Shown piece after piece: positions 1,935 to 61,890 of a stretch of 64,000 nt of DNA. Both the position numbers and the translations under genes were made by a program. The notes under the pieces are model-generated. The model did no database searches. It saw nothing but the letters and a program-made list of their open reading frames with translations, and was not told where the DNA came from. Where the stretch lies: positions 4,376,394 to 4,440,393 of the forward strand of contig CP036432.1 of the NCBI GenBank assembly GCA_007753675.1, written 5' to 3'. Position 1 is the first letter of the stretch, and each line of letters begins with the position of its first letter. This DNA comes from Stieleria magnilauensis. GTDB lineage: Bacteria; Planctomycetota; Planctomycetia; Pirellulales; Pirellulaceae.

Positions 1935-2079
1935 ATGATTGGTCCGGATTTCGGGTGGGATGTTTCGGGAGTCGAAAGAGGCGAGATTTCCTGGCGGAAC
2001 CCGCTCTATCATAGGCCCTCGCAAGTTGGGCCGTTGTGGAATGGTAGGAAAGAGGCGAAACGCAGACAATGTTGGTTTC

Positions 2080-3417
2080 TCATTCTTGACCGGTCGGATC
2101 GTCGACCGTCGCCAATTCGACGGTCAATTCGACGCGTTTTCCCTTGCGCCGGACGACGATTGGCTGTTTTGAACCGATCGGTTTGCGTTCAATGGCCTCC
2201 TGAAGCCCAATGGAATCTCGCACCTGTTCGCCGGCGAATTCCACGATCACGTCCTGAGGCTCGATGCCCGCCTGTTCGGCGACCGATCCCTTGATGATCT
2301 GATAGACCAGGATACCAGAATACGGCTCCAAATTAAATTGTTTCGCGATTCGCGGCTTCAGTTCCACCAGGGTGGTACCGATCGCGGCACGGCGAACTTT
2401 GCCGTGGCGGTCGAGTTCGTCGGCGATCCAGCGGGCCTGGTTGATCGGGATCGCGAACCCCACGCCCTGGTAAAACCCGCTCCGGGTGGCGATCGCGGTG
2501 CTGATTCCGACCACTTTGCCATCCAGATCGATCAGTGCACCGCCGGAATTTCCGGGATTGATGGCGGCATCAGTCTGCAACATGCTGCTGCGTCGAATCC
2601 GATCCAAACGGCGGTTTTTGCCGCTGATAATCCCCGCACTGACCGTCGCTTCCAATTTAAAGGGGCTGCCGATCGCCAGCACCCAATCGCCGATTTCCAG
2701 CTTGTCACTGTCGCCGACCGAGATCGGGTCGAGCGGTTCGGAAAAGTCCACGCGGACCATCGCCACGTCGCTGTCCGGGTCGCCGCGGACCACTTTCGCG
2801 TCCACGCGGGTCTCATCGGGCAATTGCACGACGACACGCGTCGCCCCGGTGATGACGTGGTTGTTGGTGATGATCAGCCCGTCGGCCGAGACGATCACTC
2901 CGGATCCCAACCCGGTCAGTTTCTCTTCGGCCGGCGGCGGCGTCGGGATTTCCGCGCGTTCCAACAACGGCAATTCGTCTTCCGGGACTTCCGTTTCACT
3001 GGAGTCACCCGGGTCCCCATTTTGGCCGTAGGCATACAACACGACGACCGACGGCGTGGCACGCTTGGCGGCCATGCGAAACGCCAGGGACAGCGCGCGT
3101 GGGCCCGCTTGCAGCGCCGCAAGCACTTCGGGGCTGGCCTCGGCCGCACCACCGGATTCGGCACTGGCCGGCTCCGCTTTCGGGGTCTCCGCTTTCGGCG
3201 GCTCGGCTTTGGCCGGCTCAGCTTTCGGCGGCTCAGCACTCGGGGTCTCGGCCGCCGCAGCGGGCGGGGCGGGTTCCTGGTCCGGCGATTCAGAAGCCGC
3301 TTGGTCGCCTTCGGGTGCGGTGACATTCGATTCCGTTTGGGCCGCCAGACACTGGGTGACCATCATCGTGGTGATGACGGAGAAAACCAATGCGATCAAG
3401 TAACGGGAGCACAACAT
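2080..3417 (-). CDS. HtrA/DegP-like trypsin-family serine protease with one PDZ domain
   Basis: 445 residues from the ATG at 3417, chosen because it begins a clear signal peptide (MLCSRYLIALVFSVITTMMV) and is preceded by an AGGA-type ribosome site. The frame is open 40 codons further upstream but that part does not look like protein. After the signal comes a low-complexity Ala/Pro/Glu/Lys linker (PPKAEPAKAEPPKAETPKAE), then a trypsin-like domain with His in TNNHVITGA (about residue 185), Asp in DSDVAMVRV (about 215) and Ser in NPGNSGGAL (about 291). One PDZ domain is at the C-terminus (about 365-440, GILVYQIIKGSVAEQAG). The family performs envelope protein quality control. It is divergent from the nucleoside phosphorylase gene. 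The charged linker may span the cell wall or hold the protease off a membrane; that is inference. Confidence 0.93.
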   Translation of the reverse strand: MLCSRYLIALVFSVITTMMVTQCLAAQTESNVTAPEGDQAASESPDQEPAPPAAAAETPSAEPPKAEPAKAEPPKAETPKAEPASAESGGAAEASPEVLAALQAGPRALSLAFRMAAKRATPSVVVLYAYGQNGDPGDSSETEVPEDELPLLERAEIPTPPPAEEKLTGLGSGVIVSADGLIITNNHVITGATRVVVQLPDETRVDAKVVRGDPDSDVAMVRVDFSEPLDPISVGDSDKLEIGDWVLAIGSPFKLEATVSAGIISGKNRRLDRIRRSSMLQTDAAINPGNSGGALIDLDGKVVGISTAIATRSGFYQGVGFAIPINQARWIADELDRHGKVRRAAIGTTLVELKPRIAKQFNLEPYSGILVYQIIKGSVAEQAGIEPQDVIVEFAGEQVRDSIGLQEAIERKPIGSKQPIVVRRKGKRVELTVELATVDDPTGQE

Positions 3418-5238: not shown

Positions 5239-5318
5239 CGGGCAGCATCCCCGAGGGATGAAAGCGACTAGCCAGAGCGGAGCGTTCCGCTCACGATAGC
5301 AACAAACGGAGTGCGTCT

Positions 5319-5399
5319 TGTTAGCGGCAGGGCGCGAGCCCTCCGGTCTTTGTTAGCGGCAGGGCGCAAGCCCTCCGGTCCTTGTTAGCGGCAGGGCGC
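5319..5399 (+). repeat. Cluster of three REP-like hairpin repeats (third interrupted by the IS)
   Basis: Three direct copies of a ~29 bp unit with consensus TTAGCGGCAGGGCGCAAGCC followed by CTCCGGT begin at 5319, 5350 and 5382. Each can fold as AGGGC-GCAA-GCCCT. The third copy stops at 5399 after GGGCGC, where the insertion sequence begins; its other half resumes at 7397. Confidence 0.85.
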
Positions 5400-5401
5400 T
5401 A

Positions 5402-7396
5402 GCGGCCTGTCGGTTTAGTGTATCCACAAAACGAGGGGAGGTGGCTTAGTAGGCATCGTCACGATGTTTGCTATTCTTGGCGGATCGTCGTCGCGATTCA
5501 CTTCTCACGCAGGGAGGCTTGCCCAGTGAGCCAGAGACAACCCAAGACCAGCTATTGGCAGGAAGCTCCTACACCACGCGGGCAACTGGTCCTCATTCCC
5601 ACCGCCCTGGAGGAACTCATCCCTCAGGATCATCCCGTTCGCTTGGTCGACGAGATTCTCGATCAGATGGACTGGACTGATTGGGAGGCGGCCTACAACG
5701 GCGGATTCGGTCAGCCGCCGATCCATCCCAGCGTAATGGCAAAGATCCTGCTGTTTGCCATGATTCGGCGAATCCGATCCAGCCGGAACATTGAATACGA
5801 ACTCAAGCATTCGATCGATTTTATCTGGCTTAGCAGCGGTCGCCGCATCGATCACAGCACGATCAGCGACTTCCGCCGAAACAATAGTGATGCAGTCAAA
5901 GGCATCTTCAAACAAATGGTCAAGCTGGCGATCAACCTGGGGATCGCCAATCTCTCGGAACTGTGCATCGACGGCACACGCATCCTGGCTGACGCCAACA
6001 AATACAAGACTTGGACGGCCAAACGATTAGCCAAAGCACTCGAAGAACTTGACGCGCAAATTGATGAGGCCCTGGAAACCTTCGAAGTCAACGACGCATG
6101 CGACGAAGATCTCATCGGCCAGGACGTTTCGGCGGACCGCCTCCCCGCCGCCGTCGCCAACTTGAAGTCACGCCGCTCACAACTGGCCGCTCATCTGGAG
6201 ACGGTCAATGCGATGGACGAAGTCCGCAGGAAAAATGGGACGAAGGGCCCCGCCCAGTTACCCAAGACTGACACGGACAGTCGCATTCTTCCCAATAAGG
6301 AGGGTGGTTACGCAGCCAACTTTACTCCGATGGCGACGACCGAAACGCAGAGCGGCCTGATCGTTGCGGCGGACGTCTTGATCGGCAACGTCGAACACCA
6401 CGAATTTGCCACCATCGTCGACTGTGTGGCCAACGACTTTGGAATTGACATTAAGCGAGTCATGGCTGACTCGGCTTACACGACGGGCAAAAACCTCACT
6501 GCGGCTGAGGAAAAACAGATCGAACTGATTGGCCCGCTTGCCGAAACCAATCGCGAGAACAACCCTGCCGAGCGTTCGGATTTGACTGAGCCCGTTGCCG
6601 CCGATCAGATTGATCAGTTGCCGGTTAATCCACAAACCAAACGATTTGACAAAGCAGCGTTTGTGTACGACGAAGCGAACGACTGCTATTACTGCCCGGC
6701 AGGCAAAGTGCTTTCACATCGGACGACCGAGAACACGACGCATGGCGACGGCTCTCCGGTGCAGCGAAAGGTTTACACCTGTTTTGAATGCGAGGGCTGC
6801 ACGCTGGCTGGGCGTTGTCGCAAGAACGTGAAGCCAAAAGACGAGGCAAGCAGCAGCGAGGCATCGTCCCAGGAGTCCAGCGAAGCGACCTCGTCGGACA
6901 AGCGAGCGGGCAAGCGACGTGGTCGCAAGCCTGGCCCGCCACGTGGTCGCGAGACGATGCATGATGAGCATGAAGGAGCGCGACGTCGGCAGCGTGCGCG
7001 AATGGAAACGCCTGCAGCCAAAGAGGCTTACTCTCGTCGTCAGCATTTCGGTGAAACGCCTTTCGCCGTGATCAAGAGCACGCTTGATATGCGGCGATTC
7101 CTGCTTCGAGGTATCGCAGGTGTGAATCAAGAATGGCGCTGGGCGGCGACCGGATTCAATCTGAAGAAAATCATGAGTTACTTGGCGAAGCTGCGCGCCG
7201 CCGCGGCGACACAATCGCTCGGAACAGCAAACTAGGGGAGATAGGGGGCATTTCGAACGAAATCCGCCACAAGCGAACGCCACGATCCCGTCAACACGCT
7301 TACCAACGACTCTGGATGCCCCGCATAGCACCATAAAAGCCTCGTCCGGAACCAAAATCGAATCAACCGTCCCCAGGAACTAAATCGACAGGCCGC
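5402..7396 (+). mobile_element. IS1182-type insertion sequence
   Basis: An ~1995 bp element with one transposase gene. The terminal inverted repeats are 18 bp with a single mismatch: GCGGCCTGTCGGTTTAGT at 5402-5419 against the complement of 7379-7396. Removing 5400-7396 exactly restores a complete copy of the surrounding hairpin repeat (GGGCGC joined to AAGCCC). The element therefore entered the loop of that hairpin with no target duplication, or at most a 2 bp GC duplication. The exact outer bases (TA at 5400-5401) are ambiguous. The ~124 bp before the transposase start and ~160 bp after its stop show no other gene. Confidence 0.88.
5526..7235 (+). CDS. IS1182-family transposase (DDE)
   Basis: 569 residues from the GTG at 5526, chosen because AGGGAGG lies 8 nt upstream; the frame remains open back to 5418. 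An N-terminal DUF772-type region (HPVRLVDEILDQMDW, HPSVMAKILLFAMI) is followed by the DDE core: Asp in LCIDGTRI, Asp in VMADSAYTTG and a candidate Glu in HFGETPFAVIKS. A cysteine-rich insert (CYYCPAGKVL, CFECEGC) may bind zinc, and a Lys/Arg/Ser-rich linker precedes the last motif. No frameshift or internal stop is seen, so the enzyme may be active. It moves the element that carries it. Confidence 0.92.
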   Translation: MSQRQPKTSYWQEAPTPRGQLVLIPTALEELIPQDHPVRLVDEILDQMDWTDWEAAYNGGFGQPPIHPSVMAKILLFAMIRRIRSSRNIEYELKHSIDFIWLSSGRRIDHSTISDFRRNNSDAVKGIFKQMVKLAINLGIANLSELCIDGTRILADANKYKTWTAKRLAKALEELDAQIDEALETFEVNDACDEDLIGQDVSADRLPAAVANLKSRRSQLAAHLETVNAMDEVRRKNGTKGPAQLPKTDTDSRILPNKEGGYAANFTPMATTETQSGLIVAADVLIGNVEHHEFATIVDCVANDFGIDIKRVMADSAYTTGKNLTAAEEKQIELIGPLAETNRENNPAERSDLTEPVAADQIDQLPVNPQTKRFDKAAFVYDEANDCYYCPAGKVLSHRTTENTTHGDGSPVQRKVYTCFECEGCTLAGRCRKNVKPKDEASSSEASSQESSEATSSDKRAGKRRGRKPGPPRGRETMHDEHEGARRRQRARMETPAAKEAYSRRQHFGETPFAVIKSTLDMRRFLLRGIAGVNQEWRWAATGFNLKKIMSYLAKLRAAAATQSLGTAN

Positions 7397-7523
7397 AAGC
7401 CCTCCGGTCTTTGTTAGCGGCAGGGCGCAAGCCCTCCGGTCTTTGTTAGCGGCAGGGCGCAAGCCCTCCGGTCCTTCAATATCTTCTCCAGCTTCACCGG
7501 ACGGCTCGCGCCGTTCCGCTAAG
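7397..7523. repeat. REP-like hairpin repeats downstream of the IS
   Basis: 7397-7409 is the right half of the interrupted unit. Two intact direct copies follow at 7411-7440 and 7443-7472. At 7496-7523 an inverted copy of the sister variant appears (complement of TTAGCGGAACGGCGCGAGCC plus GTCCGGT), the same variant found near 51.4 kb. The gap up to the aminotransferase stop holds no gene. Confidence 0.8.
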
Positions 7524-9662: not shown

Positions 9663-12362
9663 ATGTCTGATTCCAATCGCCCCCAGGATGCAACCGACGA
9701 CTCGTCGGTTTGGGATGACGCCCGCATCACCGCCTATGTGATGGGAGAACTCTCCCCACAGGACGCCGCAGCATTCGAACAATCGATGGCCACGAACGAC
9801 CAGCTCCGCGCGGCCGTCGACCAAGCCGGACGAGTCACCGAACAGTTACAAACGTTGTTCGCCGACGAACCTCCCAAGACGCTCGACGGTGAGCGACGCG
9901 AACAGATTCTGGCAGCGTCGGCAAGCCACCGCGCAGACCAGGCGACGATCGAGCCGAGCTTGTTGGAAACCTCGAGCTCCTCCAAACGACTGGTGCCCTG
10001 GCTGTTGGCCGCCGCCGCATCGATTCTGTTGTTGATCGGCATCGTGCCGGCACTGAAGCAAGCGCAGGTCGCCCAGTCTTCAACCGGCGCGTCCGAATCC
10101 GAACAGAAACCGGAACTGAAAGAGACAGACGACGAATTGCTGCTCGAATCGATCGCTCCAGTCCCCGCGGCGGAAGCGGAGCAGGACGAGCAACGTATGG
10201 AAGAACTCGCTGCCAGCGGCGCCAGCGACTCCATAGCCCGCCAATCGGTCAAGCTGAATCTCCAGCTGGAAAGCTCTGAAGCCGATGCGGGCGCAGCCAT
10301 CGCGACCGCGTCTGACCAGACGGCGATCCTTCTCCCAGCACCGCCCGTCGTGGAAAAGCAGGTTGCCCGGCGGAACCTGCCGATCGAGCTTTCGCGGGAG
10401 GCGGTAAACCGCGATTCCTTCGGCGCCATGCCGGGACGGTCGGTCGCGGTCGCACCGGCCCCCGCCAGTGAACCGGCCCCCGCCAGTGAACCGGCCCCCG
10501 CCAGTGAACCGGCCCCCGCCAGTGAACCGGCCCCCGCCAGTGAGTCGGGCCCCGCCAGTGAGTCGGCCCCCATCGATGCGACGGCCCCCAAAGATGCACC
10601 GGCCACCACCAACGAGCCGCATCCGTTCGGGTTGTCGGCGGCAGCCGATGGGGCGATCCCCGCAGCAGACTCTGCTCCTGCTACGCCCGGGGGCGGCTCG
10701 GTGGCGTCAGCCCCCTCGTCGGCTTCGGGTCTGGCGAAGTCGCTTCGTGGGGGACGCACCCGACGCCTCGCAACGTTGCCTGGGGCGGGTGTGCCCGACG
10801 TCGCTGAAGGGGAATCGAAAGCCTTCTTTGACAAACGAATCGCGGCTCCGTCCGGGGACGTCGCGCTCAAAAAATCCGAAGCGAGGCTGGACTTGTATGC
10901 GCTGTCGCCAGACGGCGGCGCGCTGCCCTATACCGACGGAGATCGTTTTGATCGGATCGTCGAAAACGAATTCAAACAAGTCCGCGAGCATCCGCTCAGT
11001 ACGTTTTCGATCGATGTCGACACCGCCAGCTACAGCAAGCTGCGACGCACGCTGGTCGAGGGCCGACTGCCGCGGCCGGACGCCGTTCGGATCGAAGAAT
11101 TGGTCAACTACTTTGATTACGACTACGACTCGCCCCAAGCCGATTCCGAGCATCCATTCGCCACCGACGTGACGATCGCCGGCTGCCCTTGGAATGACGA
11201 ACACCGCTTGGCCCGGGTCGCAATTCAAGGCAAACACCTCGCACCTGATTCCCGCCCACCTTGCAATCTGGTGTTTTTGCTGGACACCAGCGGATCGATG
11301 AATCAGCCGAACAAATTGCCGCTGGTGATCGAGGGCATGAAGATGCTGACCAAGCAACTGGGCAAGGAAGACCGTGTGGCGATCGTCGTTTATGCCGGTT
11401 CGGCCGGCATGGTGCTCGACAGCACTCCCGCCGGGAAACAAAAGAAAATCACCAAAGCGCTTTCGCAGCTCTCCGCCGGTGGCAGCACCAACGGTGGCGC
11501 GGGAATCCAATTGGCGTATGCGACCGCGCGAGACAACTTTATCAAAGACGGCGTCAATCGCGTGATTCTGTGCACCGACGGCGACTTCAACGTCGGCCTG
11601 AGCGGAACCGACCAGTTGGTGCGGCTGATCAAAGAAGAAGCGTCCGGCGGAATCTTCTTGACGGCCTTGGGATTCGGAATGGGCAACCACAACGACGCCA
11701 TGATGGAACAAATCAGCGGCGAAGGAAACGGAAACTATGCCTTCATCGACACCGTCAACGAAGCCCATAAGGTGTTGGTCCGTCAAACCGATGCGACGTT
11801 GGTGACGATCGCCAAAGACGTCAAAATCCAAATCGAGTTCAATCGCCGCGTCGTTTCCAAGTACCGATTGATCGGCTACGAAAATCGCATGTTGGCGAAA
11901 GAAGACTTTTATGACGACAGCAAAGACGCCGGTGAAATCGGAGCCGGTCACCAGGTCACCGCGCTGTACGAATTGGTCCTCTCGGGCGCAAACGACGACG
12001 TGGAGCGACAGGTGGCCCCGCTGAAGTATCAGAAGTCACGCGAACTGACCGAAGCCGCTTCGTCGGGCGAGGCCATGACCGTCAAGCTGAATTATAAACA
12101 ACCCGGCGGCGGCGCCAGCACGTTGATCGAACTGAGTGCCAAAGACAACGAACAAGCCTTTGCCAAAGCGGATTCGGATTTCCGATTCGCCGCCTCCGTG
12201 GCCGCCTTCGGCATGCAGCTTCGACAAAGCGAGTTCGCCGGCGACTGGACGCTCCGCAACGTCCTGGAAGTCGCCCAGGCCAACGTCGGCCCGGATGAGT
12301 TTCAGCTACGAAGCGAGTTCGTCCAATTGGTGACCGCGGCACTTCGTCTGAAGGGTGAGTAG
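9663..12362 (+). CDS. Membrane-anchored von Willebrand A protein (YfbK/DUF3520 type) with anti-sigma-like N-terminus
   Basis: 899 residues. The N-terminus (ITAYVMGELSPQDAAAFEQS) resembles the cytoplasmic part of anti-sigma factors, without zinc ligands. A single transmembrane helix follows at about residues 107-130 (LVPWLLAAAASILLLIGIV). Next comes a low-complexity linker with seven APASEP-type hexads. The outer part has the YfbK N-terminal domain (about 435-530, STFSIDVDTASYSKLRRTLV), a vWA domain with an intact MIDAS (DTSGSMNQ at about 540; CTDGDFNVGL) and a C-terminal DUF3520-like region (about 720-895). The architecture suggests an outside-facing adhesion or sensing domain tied to control of the sigma factor encoded 74 bp upstream. 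That control is inference; the domains are seen. Confidence 0.9.
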   Translation: MSDSNRPQDATDDSSVWDDARITAYVMGELSPQDAAAFEQSMATNDQLRAAVDQAGRVTEQLQTLFADEPPKTLDGERREQILAASASHRADQATIEPSLLETSSSSKRLVPWLLAAAASILLLIGIVPALKQAQVAQSSTGASESEQKPELKETDDELLLESIAPVPAAEAEQDEQRMEELAASGASDSIARQSVKLNLQLESSEADAGAAIATASDQTAILLPAPPVVEKQVARRNLPIELSREAVNRDSFGAMPGRSVAVAPAPASEPAPASEPAPASEPAPASEPAPASESGPASESAPIDATAPKDAPATTNEPHPFGLSAAADGAIPAADSAPATPGGGSVASAPSSASGLAKSLRGGRTRRLATLPGAGVPDVAEGESKAFFDKRIAAPSGDVALKKSEARLDLYALSPDGGALPYTDGDRFDRIVENEFKQVREHPLSTFSIDVDTASYSKLRRTLVEGRLPRPDAVRIEELVNYFDYDYDSPQADSEHPFATDVTIAGCPWNDEHRLARVAIQGKHLAPDSRPPCNLVFLLDTSGSMNQPNKLPLVIEGMKMLTKQLGKEDRVAIVVYAGSAGMVLDSTPAGKQKKITKALSQLSAGGSTNGGAGIQLAYATARDNFIKDGVNRVILCTDGDFNVGLSGTDQLVRLIKEEASGGIFLTALGFGMGNHNDAMMEQISGEGNGNYAFIDTVNEAHKVLVRQTDATLVTIAKDVKIQIEFNRRVVSKYRLIGYENRMLAKEDFYDDSKDAGEIGAGHQVTALYELVLSGANDDVERQVAPLKYQKSRELTEAASSGEAMTVKLNYKQPGGGASTLIELSAKDNEQAFAKADSDFRFAASVAAFGMQLRQSEFAGDWTLRNVLEVAQANVGPDEFQLRSEFVQLVTAALRLKGE
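10456..10571 (+). repeat. In-frame 18 bp tandem repeat coding for APASEP hexads
   Basis: Five near-identical 18 bp units (GCCCCCGCCAGTGAACCG) are followed by two variants with SESGP/SESAP codons, all within the vWA protein linker. The unit length keeps the frame, so copy number can change linker length without disrupting the protein. Confidence 0.9.
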
Positions 12363-51600: not shown

Positions 51601-53049
51601 ATGACACAGCCCTTTAACATGCATCCGATGAATCAGACGCGTCGCCAGTTCTTCGGTTCGGCCGGGACCGGAGTCGGGCTGGCGGCCTTGGCGACGTTGT
51701 TGGGGAACCGCGCCGCCAGTGGTGCGGGCGGATTGCCGACGTTGCCGCACTATCCGGCCAAGGCAAAGCGGGTGATCTATTTGCTCCAGAACGGTGCACC
51801 GTCGCACGTCGATCTGTTTGATCACAAACCGATATTGACCAAGCTGCACGGCCAACAGATCCCGGATTCGGTCGTCGGCGGCGCCCGATTCAGCACGATG
51901 ACCGGCGGCCAGACCGCGCGCCCCTGTCTGAAGGAGATCACGACGTTCGCCCGTCACGGGCAAAGCGGAGCGACGGTTTCCAGCTTTCTTCCCGAAACGG
52001 CAAAGATTGCCGACAAGCTGTGTTTCATCAAATCGATGCACACGACACAGGTCAATCACGCTCCTGCGATCACGTATTTTCTGACCGGCGATGAACGCCC
52101 CGGTCGGCCGAGCATGGGGGCTTGGCTCAGTTACGGTCTCGGCAGCGAAACCGAAGAACTGCCTGCGTTTGTCGCCATGACCTCGCGCGACAAGGAAGCA
52201 TCGTGTGGACAGATCTTTTACGACTATTACTGGGGCAGCGGTTTTCTGCCGACGGTGCACCAAGGCGTCAAGTTTCGTGGCAGCGGCGATCCGGTGTTGT
52301 ACCTGTCGGATCCGCCCGGGATGAATCGTGATCGTCGCCGGGGCATGTTGGACGACCTCGCCGTGCTCAACCAAGGACAGCTCGATGTGGTCGGCGATCC
52401 GGAAATTGCGACGCGGATCAAACAGTATGAAATGGCCTATCGCATGCAAGCCTCGGTTCCGGAGCTGACCGATCTGTCGACGGAATCCGAATCGACGCTT
52501 GCGATGTACGGCCCCGACGTCACACGCAAGGGCTCGTATGCCTACAACTGTTTGATCGCGCGTCGACTGGCCGAACGCGGTACCCGATTCATCCAATTGA
52601 TGCATGCCGGCTGGGACCAGCATCGAAACCTGAATAGCCAATTGGAAATTCAATGTCGTGATACCGACGCCCCTTCGGCGGCGCTCGTCAAAGACTTGGA
52701 ACAGCGTGGGTTGTTGGATGACACGCTGGTGATCTGGGGCGGCGAATTCGGCCGCACTCCATTCTTGCAAGGGAAAATCGAAGACACCCAACGTTGGGGC
52801 CGCGACCATCATCCGTATGTGTTCACACTGTGGATGGCCGGCGGCGGCATCAAGCCCGGCGTCACGTATGGGGAGTCCGACGAATTCGGATTTACCGTGG
52901 CCGCCGATGGCGTCAGCGTCCATGATTTCCAAGCCACCATCCTGCATTTGCTGGGCATCGACCACGAACGATTGACCTACCGCTACCAAGGCCGACGTTT
53001 TCGTTTGACCGACGTTCACGGAGAGATCGTCGAACCCATCCTCGGATAA
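51601..53049 (+). CDS. DUF1501 (sulfatase-like) exported protein
   Basis: 482 residues from the ATG at 51601; the frame is open upstream through the repeats but that is not protein. The N-terminus carries a Tat signal (NQTRRQFFGSAGTGVGLAAL). RVIYLLQNGAPSHVDLFDHK, FLPETAKIADKLCFIKSMHT and DDTLVIWGGEFGRTPFLQG followed by RDHHPYVFTLWMAGGG are the conserved DUF1501 motifs, resembling alkaline phosphatase/sulfatase metal sites. DUF1501 proteins regularly accompany the DUF1549 cytochrome gene found upstream, and the two presumably act together at the cell surface. The substrate is unknown. Confidence 0.93.
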   Translation: MTQPFNMHPMNQTRRQFFGSAGTGVGLAALATLLGNRAASGAGGLPTLPHYPAKAKRVIYLLQNGAPSHVDLFDHKPILTKLHGQQIPDSVVGGARFSTMTGGQTARPCLKEITTFARHGQSGATVSSFLPETAKIADKLCFIKSMHTTQVNHAPAITYFLTGDERPGRPSMGAWLSYGLGSETEELPAFVAMTSRDKEASCGQIFYDYYWGSGFLPTVHQGVKFRGSGDPVLYLSDPPGMNRDRRRGMLDDLAVLNQGQLDVVGDPEIATRIKQYEMAYRMQASVPELTDLSTESESTLAMYGPDVTRKGSYAYNCLIARRLAERGTRFIQLMHAGWDQHRNLNSQLEIQCRDTDAPSAALVKDLEQRGLLDDTLVIWGGEFGRTPFLQGKIEDTQRWGRDHHPYVFTLWMAGGGIKPGVTYGESDEFGFTVAADGVSVHDFQATILHLLGIDHERLTYRYQGRRFRLTDVHGEIVEPILG

Positions 53050-53127
53050 GACCTCAGCCTGTCGATCGCTGACTTGGTTCATCATCGACGCGATCGCGTT
53101 CACCCTCTCACACCCAGGCAATTCGCC

Positions 53128-53985
53128 ATGACACGGATTCTACTTGTCGGCCTTGCGTTGTTTTCGATGACCACCCCCGCAGTCACGATCCGGGCTGAGT
53201 CCCCCGCGACCGGGCTGACGATCCAATGGAATGGCCGTTATCTGGACGTCCACGGGCCAAACCTCCCCGGCGACTTCATTCGCACACACTATCTGGAAGC
53301 TTATTGCCGTCCCGGATCGACCGATCGAGACTGGAGTGAAACAGTGATCAAGCACACCAGTGAATTGATCAAGGCGACGCCGGATCGCAAACGAATCGAA
53401 ATTCGTGACACACTCGTCGACGGCGTGATCGTCGACCACGTGATCCTGGCCGGCGAAGACGAAGTGACGTTTGAATTGACGGCGACCAACCCGACCGACA
53501 AAGCATCCGAGGCCCATTGGGCACAACCCTGCATGCGGGTGGACCGTTTCACCGGCGCAGATCCTGGCAACGCCCGCGACATCTATCCGCCTTACATCAG
53601 GAAGTGTTTCCTGATCGTCGACGGAACACTGACCCGACTTCCGACATCACCATGGGCGCTCAAGGCGCGCTACGTTCCCGGCCAAGTCTACGCCCCCGAA
53701 CACGTCGACCGCGACGACGTCAATCCGCGCCCGCTCAGTGATGTCGTTCCCTCCAGCGGCCTGACCGGATGCTACTCCGCCGACGAGAAAATGATTTTGG
53801 CGGTCGCCTGGCACCCCTACCAGGAGATCTTTCAAGGCGTGATCACCTGCATGCACAACGATTTTCGCATCGGCGGTTTGGCGCCGGGGCAGACGAAACA
53901 CATTCGAGGTAAGCTGTACGTCGTACCGGCGGACACGCAAGCGTTGATCCGGCGGTTTCAAACTGATTTTCCCGAATCGTTGTAG
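53128..53985 (+). CDS. Secreted protein of unknown function
   Basis: 285 residues from the ATG at 53128, which starts a signal peptide (TRILLVGLALFSMTTPAVTI). The rest is beta-rich (LTIQWNGRYLDVHGPNLPGD; MILAVAWHPYQEIFQGVITC), with conserved-looking His, Cys and aromatic residues, but no family is recognised. It may be a carbohydrate-active or binding jelly-roll protein; that is a guess from composition. The EEP-family gene starts 6 bp after its stop, and the DUF1501 gene ends 78 bp upstream, so all may be one transcription unit. Confidence 0.7.
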   Translation: MTRILLVGLALFSMTTPAVTIRAESPATGLTIQWNGRYLDVHGPNLPGDFIRTHYLEAYCRPGSTDRDWSETVIKHTSELIKATPDRKRIEIRDTLVDGVIVDHVILAGEDEVTFELTATNPTDKASEAHWAQPCMRVDRFTGADPGNARDIYPPYIRKCFLIVDGTLTRLPTSPWALKARYVPGQVYAPEHVDRDDVNPRPLSDVVPSSGLTGCYSADEKMILAVAWHPYQEIFQGVITCMHNDFRIGGLAPGQTKHIRGKLYVVPADTQALIRRFQTDFPESL

Positions 53986-53991
53986 CCCACC

Positions 53992-54864
53992 ATGTTTCGC
54001 CCACCGTTGTTCGTGTCTCTGTTTGCTTCGTTCTTCCTGTCTCTGATCGCTCCCGCGGTTGCCCAAGTCCCCGACGCCGCCGACCGGGCCACGCAGCAGG
54101 TGAAGGTCGCGACCTACAACATCCGCTTTGCCAACCCGAACGATGGGGATGACGTTTGGCCCAATCGCCAAGAGTTCGTGATTGAGTACTGTCGCGGCAA
54201 CGACATCATCGGGTTGCAAGAAGTCACCGAACCCCAGTTCGCCCAATTGCGAGCAGGCTTGTCAGACTTTGATTCCTACGGCGTCGGTCGCCACGATGGG
54301 AAAAGCGGCGGGGAGCACGCGCCGATCTTTTATCGTCAAGACAAGTTCGAAGTGCTCGACAAGGGAACGTTTTGGCTGAGCGAGACTCCCGAAGCGGTCG
54401 GTGTCAAAGGCTGGGACGCGGCACTGCCACGGACCTGCACCTGGATTCATTTTCGTGACCGACGAAATGGCGCCGAGTTGTATGTCGCAAACACCCACTT
54501 CGATCATCGAGGCGCAAAAGCGCGGGCCGAAAGTGGGAAACTGTTGGCCGAGCGTCTGGGCAAGTTGCCTCAAGAACTGCCGATCCTTCTGATGGGCGAC
54601 TTCAATTGCCTGATCGGTTCGGAGCCATACAACGCAATTGTTTCGGCGTTTACCGATGCGCGACAGGCCAGCAAGTCCAAACCGACCGGACCGACCAGCA
54701 CCTGGAACGGCTTCAGCAAGATCGCGCCCGACCGCATCATCGACCACATCTTCGTCCGCTCGGTCGAGGTGCTGCAGTTAGCCGTTGACAACCCCAAGAC
54801 CGACCAGGGGCGTTTCGCGAGTGATCACTTGCCGGTACAGGTGGTCGTTTCACTCGCCGAGTAA
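53992..54864 (+). CDS. Endonuclease/exonuclease/phosphatase (EEP) family protein, secreted
   Basis: 290 residues with a signal peptide (FRPPLFVSLFASFFLSLIAP). Core EEP motifs are complete: VATYNIRFANPNDGDDVWPN, NDIIGLQEVTEPQF (metal Glu), NTHFDHRG, LLMGDFNCLIGSEPYNAI and ASDHLPVQVVVSL (catalytic His). These enzymes hydrolyse phosphodiester or phosphomonoester bonds in nucleic acids, lipids or sugar phosphates; the secreted single-domain form is common in planctomycetes and Bacteroidetes. It is tightly linked (6 bp) to the preceding unknown gene. The 80 bp repeat array starts 42 bp after its stop. Confidence 0.9.
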   Translation: MFRPPLFVSLFASFFLSLIAPAVAQVPDAADRATQQVKVATYNIRFANPNDGDDVWPNRQEFVIEYCRGNDIIGLQEVTEPQFAQLRAGLSDFDSYGVGRHDGKSGGEHAPIFYRQDKFEVLDKGTFWLSETPEAVGVKGWDAALPRTCTWIHFRDRRNGAELYVANTHFDHRGAKARAESGKLLAERLGKLPQELPILLMGDFNCLIGSEPYNAIVSAFTDARQASKSKPTGPTSTWNGFSKIAPDRIIDHIFVRSVEVLQLAVDNPKTDQGRFASDHLPVQVVVSLAE

Positions 54865-55127
54865 ATCGGTGGGGTCACGTTCGGCTTTGACAGTGGCATG
54901 CGCACGTTGGTGTCCAGCCTTCAGGCGCATCCCCACGCGCTGCGAAGCAGCAAGATGGGCGGCTAAAGCCTGCACACCAGCAACCGTTGGTGTCCAGCCT
55001 TCAGGCGCATCCCCACGCGCTGCGAAGCAGCAAGGCGGGACGGCTAAAGCCTGCACACCAGCCACCATTGGTGTCCAGCCTTCAGGCGCATCCCCACGCG
55101 CTGCGGAGCAGCAAGATGGGCGGCTAA

Positions 55128-56864
55128 CCCGGATATTGCATCCGCTGACTGGTTGACTCTGATTTTAGACTGAGTTACGGCGAGGCTGTCCACGATAGCC
55201 GGTTTTTGCTGCAATCGATTCGCTGCGGGCAGAGGGCCCCCTACCCCCAGACGACCGGAAGTCGCTGCGCGGTGCCACACGATGCGATGGGAGTGGCTAA
55301 TCGCTACGGCACAGACGTGCCAGCACCTGATTGAACAGCGGTTCCCAGGGGCAATGGCTGCAAAGATGAAATACCACCCGACGACAAGTCACTCGAACTC
55401 GGGCTGCTATTTTCAACAGTCGCAATCGAATCGTGTCCACACGTAGACGACTCTGTTTCGTTCCACTCAGGCCCAGGCGACGCAACCCATCGAGTAGAAC
55501 GTAAGCAAATGATGAAAGCATCACGCGGAACTGATTGGCAATAAAACGGGTGCAACTGGTGCGATCAGCGAACAGACAAAGCTGTTGCTCTTTGATCCGA
55601 TTCTCCATCTCGCCACGCATGCAGTAGTGCTCTCGATAAAACTTCTCCGGGTCATAAGCGACAGAGCACCATGTCCCTGGAGTCTTAACTTGTAGCGGCT
55701 GCCTTTTGCCATCGACCATCGGTCGATGGTAGGTCGTGTCGACAATGTCGTCACTTGAGAAACAGTTTGTTACGACGAAGCGAGGATTGGGGCCTTTGGC
55801 GGTATACTCTGCTTTGCCGACCACCCAGCGATGGCGGTCCCACGTCCTGCCGGTGCGATAGCGAAACCACTTGTAAAAGGCTTGTTTGCCACCACGGTGG
55901 AATCTCTCGACTCTTGCGCGAGTCATTTCGCAGGCAATTTGCTTGACCAAAACCTTATTCTTGGGTAAACCAAAGACGTAGTGGACATCGTTTTTGTCGC
56001 ACCAGCGCATGAGGCGTTCGATCGCAAAACCTCCGTCACCACGAAGGGTGATTTTGACCCGAGGCCATCGTTGGCGGATCCTTGCGACAAGCAATTTTGT
56101 GATTCCGCGTGCGTGATGGCCATCACCGAGGTTGGCTGGACGAAGATACGAGACGAGAAGTTGGTCGCCGCAAAACACGTACAGAGGTTGGAAGCAATAG
56201 CTGTCGTAGTAGGCATTGAAAGCCTTTTTATCTTGATCGCCGTGTACCTTGTCGTCCGTTGCGTCTAGATCGAGTGTGATTTCATCAGGCGGGGTGTCGA
56301 AGCTGTCAAGAAAAATGTCGACGAGGATCTTGCTGAGTTCGAAGAGTTCTTTTTTGGTGATTCGGTTTTCAAATCGGGAATGAGTCGAGGGGCTCGCCAG
56401 AGTGGGATCCCAATCGTCATCCGACCTGTCATTGATTCGAGGGGGCCGTCCGGCGGCGACTTGAAAGGCGGCATCATCGCGAAGCTGCTGTTGATCGTTT
56501 GCGTCTTCGTATCCGGCCGCGATCGCAAAGATTCGACTGATAAGGATTTCCGCTTGAGAATGAACGGTGTGAATCGGATCACGCGGGTCGTGAATCGCTT
56601 GGTCGATCCGCTTGATCAAATTGAGCTTTTTGTCGACTTCGCGAAGCAGGACGAGGCCCCCATCGGAAGTGAGCGATCCGCCGTCGAAATCTACCTCAAC
56701 GGCCTGCCTTCTGAGGCGTTTCAATGCGGGACGATTTCGTTTACGCTTTGTCATTGCCGAAAGCCTTGGTTTTGTGGTCTATGAAGTGTCGTAACTCCAA
56801 TAGATACACGAACTAAGGCTTTCGCGCTATAGGGGCAGTCGAATAAGCGGATGCAATATCCGGG
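55128..56864 (-). mobile_element. IS1380-family insertion sequence
   Basis: 1737 bp. Perfect 19 bp terminal inverted repeats CCCGGATATTGCATCCGCT at both ends, and a 4 bp target duplication CTAA (55124-55127 and 56865-56868), both as expected of the IS1380 family. It lies inside the third unit of the 80 bp repeat array, in the GGCTAAAGCC hairpin; removing it with one CTAA restores the unit. Intact ends, intact transposase and matching duplications point to a recent insertion. Confidence 0.95.
55297..56754 (-). CDS. IS1380-family transposase (DDE)
   Basis: 485 residues. The IS1380 signatures are LTSDGGLVLLREVDKKLNL at the N-terminus, the DDE triad in LDLDATDDKVHG, ITLRGDGGFAIERL and GEMENRIKEQQLCLFADRT, and the C-terminal RFIANQFRVMLSSFAYVL. 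The frame is intact. Its base composition is visibly less GC-rich than the surrounding genes, consistent with a recent arrival. The 110 bp upstream and 169 bp downstream inside the element contain no other gene. Confidence 0.95.
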   Translation of the reverse strand: MTKRKRNRPALKRLRRQAVEVDFDGGSLTSDGGLVLLREVDKKLNLIKRIDQAIHDPRDPIHTVHSQAEILISRIFAIAAGYEDANDQQQLRDDAAFQVAAGRPPRINDRSDDDWDPTLASPSTHSRFENRITKKELFELSKILVDIFLDSFDTPPDEITLDLDATDDKVHGDQDKKAFNAYYDSYCFQPLYVFCGDQLLVSYLRPANLGDGHHARGITKLLVARIRQRWPRVKITLRGDGGFAIERLMRWCDKNDVHYVFGLPKNKVLVKQIACEMTRARVERFHRGGKQAFYKWFRYRTGRTWDRHRWVVGKAEYTAKGPNPRFVVTNCFSSDDIVDTTYHRPMVDGKRQPLQVKTPGTWCSVAYDPEKFYREHYCMRGEMENRIKEQQLCLFADRTSCTRFIANQFRVMLSSFAYVLLDGLRRLGLSGTKQSRLRVDTIRLRLLKIAARVRVTCRRVVFHLCSHCPWEPLFNQVLARLCRSD

Positions 56865-57851
56865 CTAAAGCCTGCACACCAGCAACCGTTGGTGTCCAGC
56901 CTTTAGGCGCATCCCCACGCGCTGCGAAGCAGCAAGGCGGGACGGCTAAAGCCTGCACACCAGCCACCATTGGTGTCCAGCCTTCAGGCGCATCCCCACG
57001 CGCTGCGAAGCAGCAAGATGGGCGGCTAAAGCCTGCACACCAGCCACCATTGGTGTCCAGCCTTCAGGCGCATCCCCACGCGCTGCGAAGCAGCAAGACG
57101 GAGCGGCTAAAGCCTGCACACCAGCACACGTTGGTGTCCAGCCTTTAGGCGCATCCCCACGCGCTGCGAAGCAGCAAGATGGGCGGCTAAAGCCTGCACA
57201 CCAGCAACCGTTGGTGTCCAGCCTTCAGGCGCATCCCCACGCGCTGCGAAGCAGCAAGACGGGGCGGCTAAAGCCTGCACACCAGCAACCGTTGGTGTCC
57301 AGCCTTTAGGCGCATCCCCACGCGCTGCGAAGCAGCAAGACGGGACGGCTAAAGCCTGCACACCAGCAACCGTTGGTGTCCAGCCTTCAGGCGCATCCTC
57401 ACGCGCTGCGAAGCAGCAAGACGGGACGGCTAAAGCCTGCACACCAGCAAGCGTTGGTGTCCAGCCTTCAGGCGCATCCCCACGCGCTGCGAAGCAGCAA
57501 GATGGGCGGCTAAAGCCTGCACACCAGCAACCGTTGGTGTCCAGCCTTCAGGCGCATCCCCACGCGCTGCGGAGCAGCAAGACGGGCGGCTGAAGCCTGC
57601 ACACCAGCGCATGTTGGTGTCCAGCCTTGAGGCGCATCCCCACGCGTTGCGAAGCAGCAAGATGGGCGGCTAAAGCCTGCACACCAGCAACCGTTGGTGT
57701 CCAGCCTTGAGGCGCATCCCCACGCGCTGCGAAGCAGCAAGATGGGCGGCTAAAGCCTGCACACCAGCAACCGTTGGTGTCCAGCCTTTAGGCGCATCCC
57801 CACGCGCTGCGGAGCAGCAAGACGGGGCGGCTGAAGCCTGCACACCAACTC

Positions 57852-60005
57852 TCACTCCCCCACGTCCCCTTCCCACTCCGACTGGTAACGGCGGATCATC
57901 TCCGCCTCGCGGTCGGTTCCGATGGCTGAGAAAACGTCCCAGGCGGGCTTTTCCGCGCCCAGCGGGTTCGCTTGACTCGGCAAACCACGCAGCCCCAATC
58001 GCAGCCCTCCTTCGTCGGGATGGTCACTGGGTCGGTGGTAATCAAAGGCGATGATGGAGGGACATTGGCGGAGTTTCTTCCAAGTCAGCAGCAGCGCGGC
58101 GGCCTGGGTGCGGAGCTGTTTTGGATCATCCTCGTCGGCGTGAAATCCCTGCTCGCTGCAGATCACCGGGCGGACGCTTCCGTCGACCGTTCGGCTCGTT
58201 GGCAGGTGCATGAATCGGTCGAGAACCTGCAAGTTCTTGATCGTGATCAATCGGGTCTCAAGATCGTCGGACACCTGCGTGTCGTTCCAGAAATCGGCCT
58301 TCCACAGGCTCTGCGGGTAAGGATGGTACGCAACGCCCCAAGGAAAGTCGCCTTCGAGTCGGCTGTCCTGGATCAATCGCTCCAACATCGCTTTGGGCGC
58401 ATACGTTTTCCAGTGCTGGTTGTCGGTCGTGTTCCAGCGGTGGGTCAAGGAAATGAACGCGCGGGCATGGGGATTGAATGGACGGGTCGCCGCATCGACC
58501 AACCGTATCGACCGGACGTAGTGATCCAAAAAGATCTCCAGGGGTTGCTCGCCCATGTTGGTCCACTGCCATCCATAGTCGACTTCGTTGTGCACGATCC
58601 AGTGATCGACCCGGCCGTGTTCGGGATGCAGCCCGCTGTAACGTTGACCGAGCAGATGCAATGCGGCAACGTAGCGTGCGACGGCTTGAGAATCGGTCAA
58701 GTTCGGCATCGCATAGGTGCCGGCGTCTGTCGATTCGGGGTGGGCGATCGGGGACCGTCCACGTGACGAGGTCGGGATCAGCAAGATTCCCGCAACGACG
58801 GCGCCGGCGTCGGTCGCGGTTCGAATGTCACGGTCTTGTTGCCGCAGTCGCGATTGGTTGCTCCACCAAGTCCGCCCCTTGATGTCGAACGGTTCCCAAC
58901 CGGGACGCGCCGTTTCGCTGACCAATCCGCTGACGACGATGTTGACCGAGGCATGTTGGATCCCGAGCGCGCGAAGTTGATCCGGCGAGAACCGCGAGGT
59001 AATACACGTCAATCCCTTGGCGGCTGAAAGTGTCTTGGCTGGCGGGACGGCGGCGTCTGGATTCAGGTCACGATATCGGGCTGCAGAAATCGGCGTCGGT
59101 GTAGACGTGGTCGCATTGTCGGTTTGTTGAAACAATTGAAACCGAACCCCCGCGTCCAACCAGGAAGAGCCAACCGGTGAATCAATCCGCGCCGTCCATC
59201 GCCGGCCGTCCTGATCGATGGTGACCGGCCAGCGCTGCGACAGCTCTGCGGTCGTCGGCGGATCGGCGGAAACTGAATCGGGATGCCGCGCGATCAAAAA
59301 CGCCGAGCGAACCACCGTGGATGGCGAAAGGGTTCCCGCCACCTGAATCCGCTCGCCGTCAAAGTCGATCGAATCAGTCTTCGCCGGCCAGTGACGGGAC
59401 CGATAATCGTTGATCCGTTCGGCCAATGCCGTCTTTTGCAACTGCCGTTGGGCGGCTTCGTCGCGTTGCCGGAGTTCCACGTCGTTCATGGGTCGAACGA
59501 CGACGCCGCGCACTTGCAACTGAACCCCCGATCGACTGCCCCAATCGATGCGGACCGGAACTTCGGCATCGCTACCGATCACATCGGGCGCCAGTGCGTT
59601 GAGCGAGAACGAGTACTTCGTCCAGCCCTCGGCGCTGGGCATTGACGGCAGCGCGGTGGCGGCGGGCCGATGAATCCCGCGTCCGCTTCGCCACTGGATT
59701 CCCCGAATCCCGTCGGGGCAGAAGTATTCCAGTTCCAGGATCCAGTCTCGCTCGGTCGCCGGCAACCGGGGCAATTCGAAACGAAAGTACGGATCGTTTC
59801 CCAAGGCAACGAACGAAACCACGCCGTCACGCTGCGACACGCGGAGCTGGTTGGCTTGGTCGCCGACGCCGGACCAATCCAACGGATACTCGTCCGCAAT
59901 CGTTGACGCCCCCGTCTCGATTCGGCCACCTTCGTCAGCCAGGCAATGACACAAAAACAAGGGGCTGATGACCAGCCAATACATCCAGACGAAATGGCGA
60001 AACAT
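57852..60005 (-). CDS. Secreted DUF5722-like (putative glycoside hydrolase fold) protein
   Basis: 717 residues from the ATG at 60005, which starts a signal peptide (FRHFVWMYWLVISPLFLCHC); an ATG at 60047 is possible. An N-terminal beta-sandwich region (about 20-190, VSFVALGNDPYFRFELPRLP, WILELEYFCPDGIRGIQWRS) precedes a TIM-barrel-like C-terminal half. That half has VDHWIVHNEVDYGWQWTNMG and RPVICSEQGFHADEDD, whose Glu residues lie at strand ends 4 and 7 as in clan-A glycosidases. My family assignment (DUF5722) is from memory of such motifs and is not certain. Its stop lies 3 bp from the repeat array. The next gene upstream (DASS transporter) ends 80 bp before its start. Confidence 0.72.
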   Translation of the reverse strand: MFRHFVWMYWLVISPLFLCHCLADEGGRIETGASTIADEYPLDWSGVGDQANQLRVSQRDGVVSFVALGNDPYFRFELPRLPATERDWILELEYFCPDGIRGIQWRSGRGIHRPAATALPSMPSAEGWTKYSFSLNALAPDVIGSDAEVPVRIDWGSRSGVQLQVRGVVVRPMNDVELRQRDEAAQRQLQKTALAERINDYRSRHWPAKTDSIDFDGERIQVAGTLSPSTVVRSAFLIARHPDSVSADPPTTAELSQRWPVTIDQDGRRWTARIDSPVGSSWLDAGVRFQLFQQTDNATTSTPTPISAARYRDLNPDAAVPPAKTLSAAKGLTCITSRFSPDQLRALGIQHASVNIVVSGLVSETARPGWEPFDIKGRTWWSNQSRLRQQDRDIRTATDAGAVVAGILLIPTSSRGRSPIAHPESTDAGTYAMPNLTDSQAVARYVAALHLLGQRYSGLHPEHGRVDHWIVHNEVDYGWQWTNMGEQPLEIFLDHYVRSIRLVDAATRPFNPHARAFISLTHRWNTTDNQHWKTYAPKAMLERLIQDSRLEGDFPWGVAYHPYPQSLWKADFWNDTQVSDDLETRLITIKNLQVLDRFMHLPTSRTVDGSVRPVICSEQGFHADEDDPKQLRTQAAALLLTWKKLRQCPSIIAFDYHRPSDHPDEGGLRLGLRGLPSQANPLGAEKPAWDVFSAIGTDREAEMIRRYQSEWEGDVGE

Positions 60006-60084
60006 GGAAATCAACGGAAGGAGGGAGCTAACGGTGGGCCCAATCATCGTTTCATCGGTCCGCAAGTGACAGGCTGACGGAGCA

Positions 60085-61890
60085 CTATTGCAGCGCCGGC
60101 GGCACAGCAAACGGGAACGCGATCGGGATCACGATCATCGAGACGGCAAACACGATCAGCGACAGGGGCAACCCGAAACGCAAGTAATCACTTGCGCGAT
60201 AACCGCCGACGGTGTAAACCATCAAATTGGTTTGATAACCGAACGGGGTCAGGAAACTTGCCGAGGCCGCGATCATCACGGTGATCACAAACGGCACTTC
60301 GCTGACCCCCAGCGTCCCGGCGGCTCCGATGGCGATCGTCAACATGATCAGCCCCGCAGCCGTGTTGGTGATCAATTCGGTGCACAGCATCGTGACCAGG
60401 TACACCAACGCCAGGCTTAACCAGGGGTCGCCGCCGGCCAGGTTGATCATCTCGACCGCGATCGCCTGGGCGGCACCGCTGGTCTCCAGTGACGTGCCGA
60501 TCCCGAGGGTCGCTCCGATCACAATCAGAATGCTCCAGTCGACCGAGCGTCTCGCTTCGCTTGCGGTGCAGCATCGGAACAGGATCATCGCCAGCGCCGC
60601 GGCCATCGCGGCGGTCAAGATCGATGCGATCTTCAGCGCCGCAATCAACACCATCGCAACCATAATGACGATCGCATACCACGCCCGATCGTGGCGGCGG
60701 ATGACATCCGAGCCGACTCGGCTGACCAGATAAAAATCGCGGAGTTCTTTGGCCCGGTGCAGAAACGACGGCGAGGCTTCGAGCAACAGCACGTCACCGG
60801 TTTCCAATTCGACGTCGCCGATTTTGCCCGTCAGCCGACGATCGCCGCGCGCGACGGCGACCACCGCTGCGTTGTAATTGCTGCGGAAACGTCCTTCGCG
60901 AATCGTTTTGCCCAACAGCGAGCAGCGGGGGCTGACGACCGCTTCGATCAGTGTCCGACGCCAAGCGGGGACTTCCAATTTGCGACCTTGGTCGTCCGGA
61001 GTCAGCAGACCGCGGATCTTTCTCAAGTCGACCACCGACTCCAACGCGCCGACCAAAATCAACGCGTCGTCGGCTTGCAGTTTTTCGTTCGGCTTGGCCG
61101 GGATGACCGAGTCGCCGCGCTGGATCTCGGCGACGTACAGCCCCGGCAGACTACGCAGTCCCGCGTCCTGAATCGTTTTGCCGATCAACGGTCCGTGGGG
61201 ATCGACCTGCATTTCGACGGTGTATTGTTTGGGATCGTCGCTGGCGCTGACGGCAGCTTTCCGCGCGGGAATCAACTTGGTCGAAAACAGAATCATGTAG
61301 CCGACGCCTAGAATCGCGGCGGGGACACCGACCACGGCCGGAGCAAAGAAACTGATCTCGCCGTCATACTTGGCCTTGAATTCCTCACGCACGATCAGAT
61401 TCGTGCTGGTCCCCATCACGGTGCACATCCCGCCCAGGATTGCGGCGTAGGAGAGCGGCAACAGCAACCGACTGGCGCTGGCCCCCAGCCGTTTGCAGAC
61501 GTCATCGACGATCGGCATCAGCGCTGCGACGACCGGCGTGTTGTTCAAGAATCCGCTGCAGATCGCGACGGGCAGCAGGATCCGCAACTGCGCATCGCGA
61601 AAGGTTTTCGCGCGATCGAGAAACCAGCCGGTCGCCAATTTCGTGCCCCCGGTCATTTCCAATCCCGCGACCACGGCAAACAACAACGCGATCGTCAACA
61701 GTCCCTGATTGCCAAATCCCAGCACCGCTTCGGCAGGACTGGGCAAGTTGGGCGTTCCGGTCAAGTCTTGGACAATCACCAAGACAGCTAAAAACACCAT
61801 CGCCAACAGGTCGGTAGATGCGATCCGGGTTGCCAAACTGGCCAGCAGTCCGAGCGAAACGGCGAGCGATAACCAGGCTTCCCAGATCAT
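60085..61890 (-). CDS. SLC13/DASS-type anion transporter with two RCK_C (TrkA-C) domains
   Basis: 601 residues. Two blocks of transmembrane helices (about 5-200 and 405-600) flank a soluble middle made of two RCK_C domains (about 222-300, GPLIGKTIQDAGLRSLPGLY, and 315-400, CSLLGKTIREGRFRSNYNAA). The helix motifs GFLNNTPVVAALMPIVDDVC and ITNTAAGLIMLTIAIGAAGT carry the SNT/NTA-type Na+/dicarboxylate (or sulfate) binding pattern of the DASS family. Similar RCK-bearing members transport sulfate or dicarboxylates in other bacteria, but the substrate here is unknown. Same strand as the flanking genes. Confidence 0.9.
   Translation of the reverse strand: MIWEAWLSLAVSLGLLASLATRIASTDLLAMVFLAVLVIVQDLTGTPNLPSPAEAVLGFGNQGLLTIALLFAVVAGLEMTGGTKLATGWFLDRAKTFRDAQLRILLPVAICSGFLNNTPVVAALMPIVDDVCKRLGASASRLLLPLSYAAILGGMCTVMGTSTNLIVREEFKAKYDGEISFFAPAVVGVPAAILGVGYMILFSTKLIPARKAAVSASDDPKQYTVEMQVDPHGPLIGKTIQDAGLRSLPGLYVAEIQRGDSVIPAKPNEKLQADDALILVGALESVVDLRKIRGLLTPDDQGRKLEVPAWRRTLIEAVVSPRCSLLGKTIREGRFRSNYNAAVVAVARGDRRLTGKIGDVELETGDVLLLEASPSFLHRAKELRDFYLVSRVGSDVIRRHDRAWYAIVIMVAMVLIAALKIASILTAAMAAALAMILFRCCTASEARRSVDWSILIVIGATLGIGTSLETSGAAQAIAVEMINLAGGDPWLSLALVYLVTMLCTELITNTAAGLIMLTIAIGAAGTLGVSEVPFVITVMIAASASFLTPFGYQTNLMVYTVGGYRASDYLRFGLPLSLIVFAVSMIVIPIAFPFAVPPALQ

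Follow-up and report, generated by a model that had tools for sequence, protein, structure and literature searches.

The genome studied comprises 10,769,056 bases in one contig, and Stieleria sp. TBK1r (accession CP036432) is a deep-sea planctomycete according to the available part of one report (PMC11588811). Within the window, that is, the whole stretch of 64,000 nucleotides that was analysed, an array of 15 units of 76-77 bp, arranged head to tail with 4-nt linkers, lies between two convergent genes. The convergent arrangement described in the first-pass annotation holds, with an Exo_endo_phos family gene (+ strand) on the left and a DUF5722 family gene (- strand) on the right. The number of 15 units also holds, as 15 left ends are present; however, the array is not continuous, because an insertion sequence at 55128-56864, overlooked at first pass, splits unit 3, leaving three left ends before and 12 after it. 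Therefore, about 59% of the span formerly assigned to the repeat is insertion sequence. TRF likewise reports two arrays of 80-81 bp period with 93-94% matches, at 54907-55127 (2.8 copies) and 56863-57847 (12.2 copies). The features of the locus are as follows.

53992..54864, + strand: left flanking gene, Exo_endo_phos family; its stop lies 41 bp from the array
54906..55127, + strand: array block 1, with units 1 and 2 and the left part of unit 3, 4-nt linkers
55124..55127, no strand: CTAA target duplication, left copy, within the micro-hairpin GGCTAAAGCC of unit 3
55128..56864, no strand: IS1380-family insertion sequence, 1,737 bp, inverted ends CCCGGATATTGCATCCGC
55297..56754, - strand: intact transposase gene, IS1380 family, 485 aa
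56865..56868, no strand: CTAA target duplication, right copy
56865..57849, + strand: array block 2, with the right end of unit 3 and units 4-15
57852..60110, - strand: right flanking gene, DUF5722 family; its stop lies 2 bp from the array

Each unit reads GTTGGTGTCCAGCCTTCAGGC, followed by a centre with GCTGCGAAGCAGC and then GGCTAAAGCCTGCACACCAGC. The three small palindromes (GGCTaaAGCC, GCCTtcAGGC and GCTGCgaaGCAGC), the imperfect inverted ends and the variable linker, all noted earlier, are real on inspection of the sequence; the inverted ends measure 21 bp each, and the centre usually carries the hairpin GCTGCnnnGCAGC. The array was correctly judged not to be a CRISPR, because the units are separated only by short linkers, mostly of 3-4 nt and recurring, in place of unique spacers of regular length. 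In Rfam, the region 53000-59000 gave two sub-threshold matches, both outside the repeats, and a 162-base query spanning two units found no match in plasmid and phage records. As RNA, the unit is predicted to fold into one extended hairpin interrupted by regularly spaced single mismatches (-35.7 kcal/mol versus a shuffle mean of -26.9; z = -2.7; none of 200 shuffles as good), and the end-linker-end junction into a hairpin with the linker as its loop (z = -2.7). Folding as DNA is weaker (z = -1.6 and -1.2); for the window unit, z was -1.6 and 18 of 200 shuffles were as good. An inverted pair of short palindromes predicted to fold as one hairpin is characteristic of REP sequences and REPINs, and the terminal inverted repeats in the unit are characteristic of MITEs.

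The unit is dispersed through the genome, where BLAST returned 275 matches. A pattern of the unit end, allowing up to three mismatches, matched 578 sites genome-wide (337 + 241) versus 5 (1 + 4) for the reversed control pattern, which together with the RNA fold argues that the repeat is not a product of chance. We then surveyed 99 spaced tiles (1.98 Mb in total, the tile beside the window excluded) with a profile built from 133 distinct units, calling clusters at E values up to 0.01. The tiles contain 37 clusters, 16 with one profile match, three of them weak (E 0.0016-0.0068), and 21 with two to 21 matches on the main strand, insert-split arrays being counted as two clusters. The 140 main-strand matches extrapolate to approximately 760 genome-wide. 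None of 39 clusters (37 in the tiles and the two window blocks) lies inside a called gene, with 82% of the sequence coding; genes were called by a codon-usage script from which ORFs consisting of more than 40% repeat were excluded, which biases toward an extragenic result. High copy number and extragenic placement are further characters of REP/REPIN elements. Units within a locus are 94.0% identical (1,228 pairs, multi-array loci treated as one locus) versus 89.0% between loci (15,243 pairs).

The clusters tend to lie near the 3' ends of genes. Of the 33 gene ends lying no more than 60 bp from a tile cluster, 30 are 3' ends, and the nearest gene end is a 3' end in 24 of the 33 clusters with two neighbours; for sets of 37 random intergenic points, the corresponding number is 16.7 on average (sd 3.0, maximum 25 in 500 runs). 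Among 35 placed clusters, 12 are in convergent and three in divergent gaps, compared with 195 and 211 of all 1,088 gaps. This placement, and the good folding of the unit RNA, would suit a block of terminators or mRNA 3'-end structures, in which the hairpins stop transcription or protect the 3' ends of both convergent genes, and the first-pass annotation had named a transcription terminator block as one possibility. However, a terminator scan found no GC-rich stem followed by a T run within the repeats, the two terminator-like sites of the region both being in the insertion sequence (shuffle mean 3.8). In co-directional gaps, the unit follows the direction of transcription in 10 cases and opposes it in another 10, without strand bias, though a near-symmetric hairpin could work either way. 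Moreover, 10 of 13 congeners are without a unit beside the DUF5722 gene, and harmless insertion also yields extragenic placement near 3' ends. A terminator block is therefore very improbable.

Among 39 relatives, BLAST matches were obtained in eight, all within the 13 congeners; with a maximum of 23 candidates scored in each genome, the match counts of the relatives are lower bounds. Absence from every relative combined with a lack of covariation, which had been named beforehand as evidence against the first-pass reading, is thus not what we found, since these eight carry it. A pattern scan of named genomes recovered 25 stretches, all of them in SM50, S. sedimenti and once in Planctomycetes bacterium CA13, where three units combine the same ends with a different centre. 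The numbers of end motifs in the Stieleria genomes are 578 (own genome), 323, 289, 256, 228, 169, 72, 48, 48, 14, 3, 3, 3 and 0, with 0-5 for the reversed control. Because the pattern also fits the mirror end within three mismatches, the numbers in relatives refer to ends and not to copies; among 160 matches in the tiles, 133 are left ends, 24 right ends and three undecided, and right ends make up 10 of 27 matches in a few loci of the congeners G001, G002 and G013. Tandem junctions, by a looser pattern, number 317 in the own genome and 33, 31, 21, 8, 5, 5, 3, 3, 2, 1, 1, 0 and 0 in the congeners, the lowest of which are at control level (0-2). A stricter pattern gave 261 in the own genome and 0 in G001 and G002; it missed variant junctions, such as those of a six-unit array in G002. 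Both motifs were derived from the own genome, which they favour in the counts, and draft genomes can collapse arrays; G001 and G002 are single contigs, with 5 and 31 junctions. In this strain, the tandem expansion of the family, which consists of extragenic palindromic repeats in Planctomycetota, is roughly tenfold stronger than in any of the 13 congeners searched.

The gene of the DUF5722 family was found in all 13 congeners, and a profile search within 1.5 kb of it detected the repeat, as a unit or a remnant, in three of them, G001, G003 (taken as S. sedimenti ICT_E10.1) and G006 (taken as Rhodopirellula sp. SM50), and none in the other ten. By eye, the copy begins at an identical base past the DUF5722 stop codon in the three congeners, and those of G001 and G006 are interrupted by other small elements; the neighbouring gene is conserved in G002, G013 and G009, the three copy-less congeners inspected by eye. 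One copy or remnant in three congeners and none in ten indicate that a dispersed palindromic element has expanded in tandem at this locus. At other sites matched on both flanks, the own genome has 12 units versus one in G001, seven versus one in G002, 10 versus three in SM50, and, at one site, three versus one in S. sedimenti or three in SM50; most of the relatives' loci were picked for holding the repeat, so the share of empty sites is not derivable from them. As single copies are preserved in relatives, the way in which a dispersed element becomes a long array lends itself to comparative study. At the site of an own seven-unit array, G001 and G006 are without the repeat and have a different palindromic repeat, of about 85 bp (GTGGGATAGGCTTCCAGCCTG), at approximately 594-690 of loci L041 and L048.

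For BIME-2 of E. coli, a role in organising the chromosome, through gyrase or nucleoid-protein sites, has been proposed, and regular spacing, alternating inverted ends and intergenic position, with 12 of 35 placed clusters convergent versus 195 of 1,088 gaps, would fit such a role here. Against it, the number of copies beside the DUF5722 gene ranges from 0 to 15, and four congeners have only 0-3 end motifs genome-wide. We regard a chromosome-organising array as improbable.

The first-pass annotation had also offered a structured RNA, with palindromes kept constant by structural constraint. Near-duplicates were dropped to leave 69 of 79 units; 12 of the 69 were excluded for a different centre or truncated end, and the remaining 57, with one window unit, formed an alignment of 58 sequences in which 26 pairs were counted. 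Changes on both sides occur at two pairs only, 36-54, which belongs to the central stem (CG 18, GC 12, UA 4, unpaired 24), and 20-66 (UA 24, UG 8, CG 6, unpaired 20). The number of doubly changed pairs does not exceed that of shuffles (2 versus 2.2), whereas covarying cells do (22 versus 14.0, a value reached by three of 500 shuffles). Compensatory change at pair 36-54 is clear; however, the unit ends are nearly invariant and therefore uninformative for covariation, and sliding the partners by +3 gave a covariation score of 0.056, nearly equal to the 0.058 of the true pairing. These data lend weak support to the array as a structured RNA.

The BIME-2 elements mentioned above consist of head-to-tail units with alternating inverted palindromes and one short and one long linker; the repeat here has the same unit arrangement and linker pattern, but its sequence, compared by eye, is unrelated. 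It also resembles REPINs, or REP doublets, as described in the available part of PMC3116915, in having an inverted pair of short palindromes with a spacer, a predicted hairpin, hundreds of extragenic copies, and, as in P. fluorescens SBW25, ordered tandem clusters. The largest ordered cluster reported there contains four REPINs, in contrast to up to 21 profile matches here. One end of REP and REPIN elements bears a tag, GTAG or CGTC (PMC3733652, available part), and by eye neither tag is present at the consensus ends in our alignment A1; in one G001 copy (L052), a variant base gives rise to GTAG. In addition, no RAYT gene adjoins the repeat at the 34 inspected Y1-transposase loci, out of 91 matches in 14 genomes, and no end motif occurs within about 1.5 kb of them (0 of 6 in the own genome, 0 of 28 in relatives). 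Because of the missing tag and the lack of a RAYT neighbour at these 34 loci, the repeat is not classified as a REPIN. Available parts of PMC3733652 and PMC6749651 mention REPs and satellites in Planctomycetes, including 29 satellites in Rhodopirellula baltica (PMC6749651), and we found no paper on repeats of Stieleria genomes in the open-licence literature.

Taken together, the array probably arose when a non-autonomous extragenic element, which forms hairpins and works much as a REPIN or BIME does, expanded locally in tandem. Of the options listed at first pass, the mobile repeat amplified in tandem is the one borne out: copies are dispersed, orthologous sites contain single copies, and copy number changes. 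Single copies would spread by means of a trans-acting enzyme that works on the hairpin ends and may be of the Y1/RAYT type. The own genome encodes three Y1 proteins above the IS200 cut-off, and two of its proteins resemble the REP-associated family NF047646 below the cut-off (56 and 62 bits versus 80). In locus L083 of G004 (1273-3164), a Y1-transposase gene lies within a tandem array of 231-bp multi-palindrome units, which contain GCTGCGGAGCAGC, the same 13-bp hairpin as the common central variant of the unit; that array is without the repeat's ends and without a profile match, and the gene is a lead to the enzyme of the repeat, not a link. Three IS200-type transposase genes lie amid several perfect hairpins in L032, L033 and L034, unrelated to this repeat family. 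Tandem growth may have proceeded through replication slippage or unequal exchange between near-identical units, as their sequences suggest, and exchange within arrays would keep units alike. The array would need no function of its own, while supplying the insertion sequence with landing sites that spare genes.

The inverted ends could also be terminal repeats cut by a DDE transposase encoded elsewhere in the genome, which would make the repeat a MITE of a DNA transposon. Single copies in relatives fit this reading, as does the flank sequence that many copies share beyond the 76-bp core and that differs between the two sides. However, no target duplication was recognised by eye at the cluster edges, no parent with the repeat's ends was encountered in the course of the other searches, and the ends of the IS1380-family element are unrelated to those of the repeat. 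For the repeat itself, neither target duplication nor an exact empty site was resolved. A MITE origin is possible, though on balance doubtful, and expansion of a REPIN- or BIME-like element is the reading we prefer.

The insertion sequence in unit 3 is placed in the IS1380 family by its transposase, which scores 381.3 bits against the NCBIfam IS1380 model (NF033539, cut-off 180) and also matches Pfam DDE_Tnp_1_4, and by its 18-bp inverted ends with a 4-bp TTAG/CTAA duplication at 13 of 13 copies. The 113 bp of the left end are identical in all 13 copies detected in the genome, and in the 12 besides the window copy the right end is again 1,737 bp from the left end. Compared with the window copy, eleven differ at two bases and one at three, with the transposase frame open throughout. 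As the copies are nearly identical, the burst looks recent, judged from sequence. Every copy is bordered at either end by TTAG or CTAA lying in the repeat's palindrome, G[GC]CTTTAG[GC]C. In the tiles, only 138 of 2,282 TTAG/CTAA 4-mers (6.0%), or 12.4% of the 1,117 intergenic ones, are in repeats, compared with 112 of 121 sites of the 10-bp palindrome. Since the palindrome is mostly confined to repeats, the 13 insertions are equally explained by a 10-bp target, and recognition of the whole unit need not follow. The insertions show that the target is the palindrome, in practice equal to this repeat, which makes the element's transposase a candidate case of natural target selectivity. Where another copy is inserted, the own genome has two three-unit blocks around the insertion sequence, and SM50 has five units without it and with a different linker. 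Among the 13 congeners, only G001 has a related element, with nine copies and a left end 84% identical. By eye, on their left flanks, five of the nine are in the repeat, one adjoins repeat sequence, one abuts an insertion sequence copy and two are elsewhere; specificity is thus weaker in G001. Blocks of this kind are best annotated as a repeat with an insertion sequence, and not as regulatory RNA or terminators.

Insertion into one palindromic extragenic repeat is known for IS1397, IS621, ISPsy8, ISPpu9 and ISRm22, among others, and the site of ISPsy8 is the symmetry axis of a predicted hairpin (PMC1525189, a 2006 survey available in part). The REP-targeting elements of that survey belong to the IS3, IS110, IS4, IS256 and IS5 families, unlike the IS1380-family element here, and the word IS1380 is absent from its text. 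By titles and abstract openings, we found no report of an IS1380-family element targeting extragenic palindromes in the open-licence literature, including the available parts of PMC10813416 and PMC9330008. IS1380 transposases serve as the outgroup of a piggyBac tree, and most piggyBac elements duplicate TTAA and a few TTAG or CTAA (PMC10813416, available part); in contrast, the element described here duplicates TTAG/CTAA at all 13 copies, and its copies in the own genome are confined to the 10-bp palindrome. The type of repeat is familiar, while the size of the arrays and the choosiness of the insertion sequence are unusual.

A palindromic element of about 135 bp, with ends CAATACCGCTAAGTTAAG, inserts at GGCTnAAGCC, the same micro-palindrome (L069 1340-1474; L113, L118, L120 and L134), with a clear 10-bp duplication in L069, which is the G006 copy at the DUF5722 locus. 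Among 25 distinct flanks of its ends, 16 are the exact palindrome and five have one mismatch by eye, 19 of the 25 being from loci picked for holding the repeat; the four flanks that came from unbiased tiles include no exact match and two with a single mismatch. It is tempting, if rather unlikely, that unrelated mobile elements share G[GC]CTTTAG[GC]C as a docking site, with an IS1380-family transposase specific to it and the repeat and insertion sequence a co-adapted pair. The transposase would then perhaps read the palindrome or a hairpin extruded from it, and long intergenic arrays would be a safe haven for both repeat and insertion sequence.

An element of about 390 bp, with ends GGGACGTCGATTG and 49 end matches in the genome (L011, L023, L031, L071 and G000 loci L178-L207), lies in the central hairpin of the repeat at some sites and was considered specific to it; this was dropped, as most of its inspected flanks are elsewhere. 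The window also contains another palindromic repeat, of 32 bp (CAGGGCGCAAGCCCTCCGGTC...), which forms two short arrays at 5317-5403 and 7389-7473, and sequence resembling it occurs in L069 of G006. At 10454-10608 of the window, about six to seven copies of an 18-bp repeat, ACCGGCCCCCGCCAGTGA, are present; its length is a multiple of three, so it is possibly coding.
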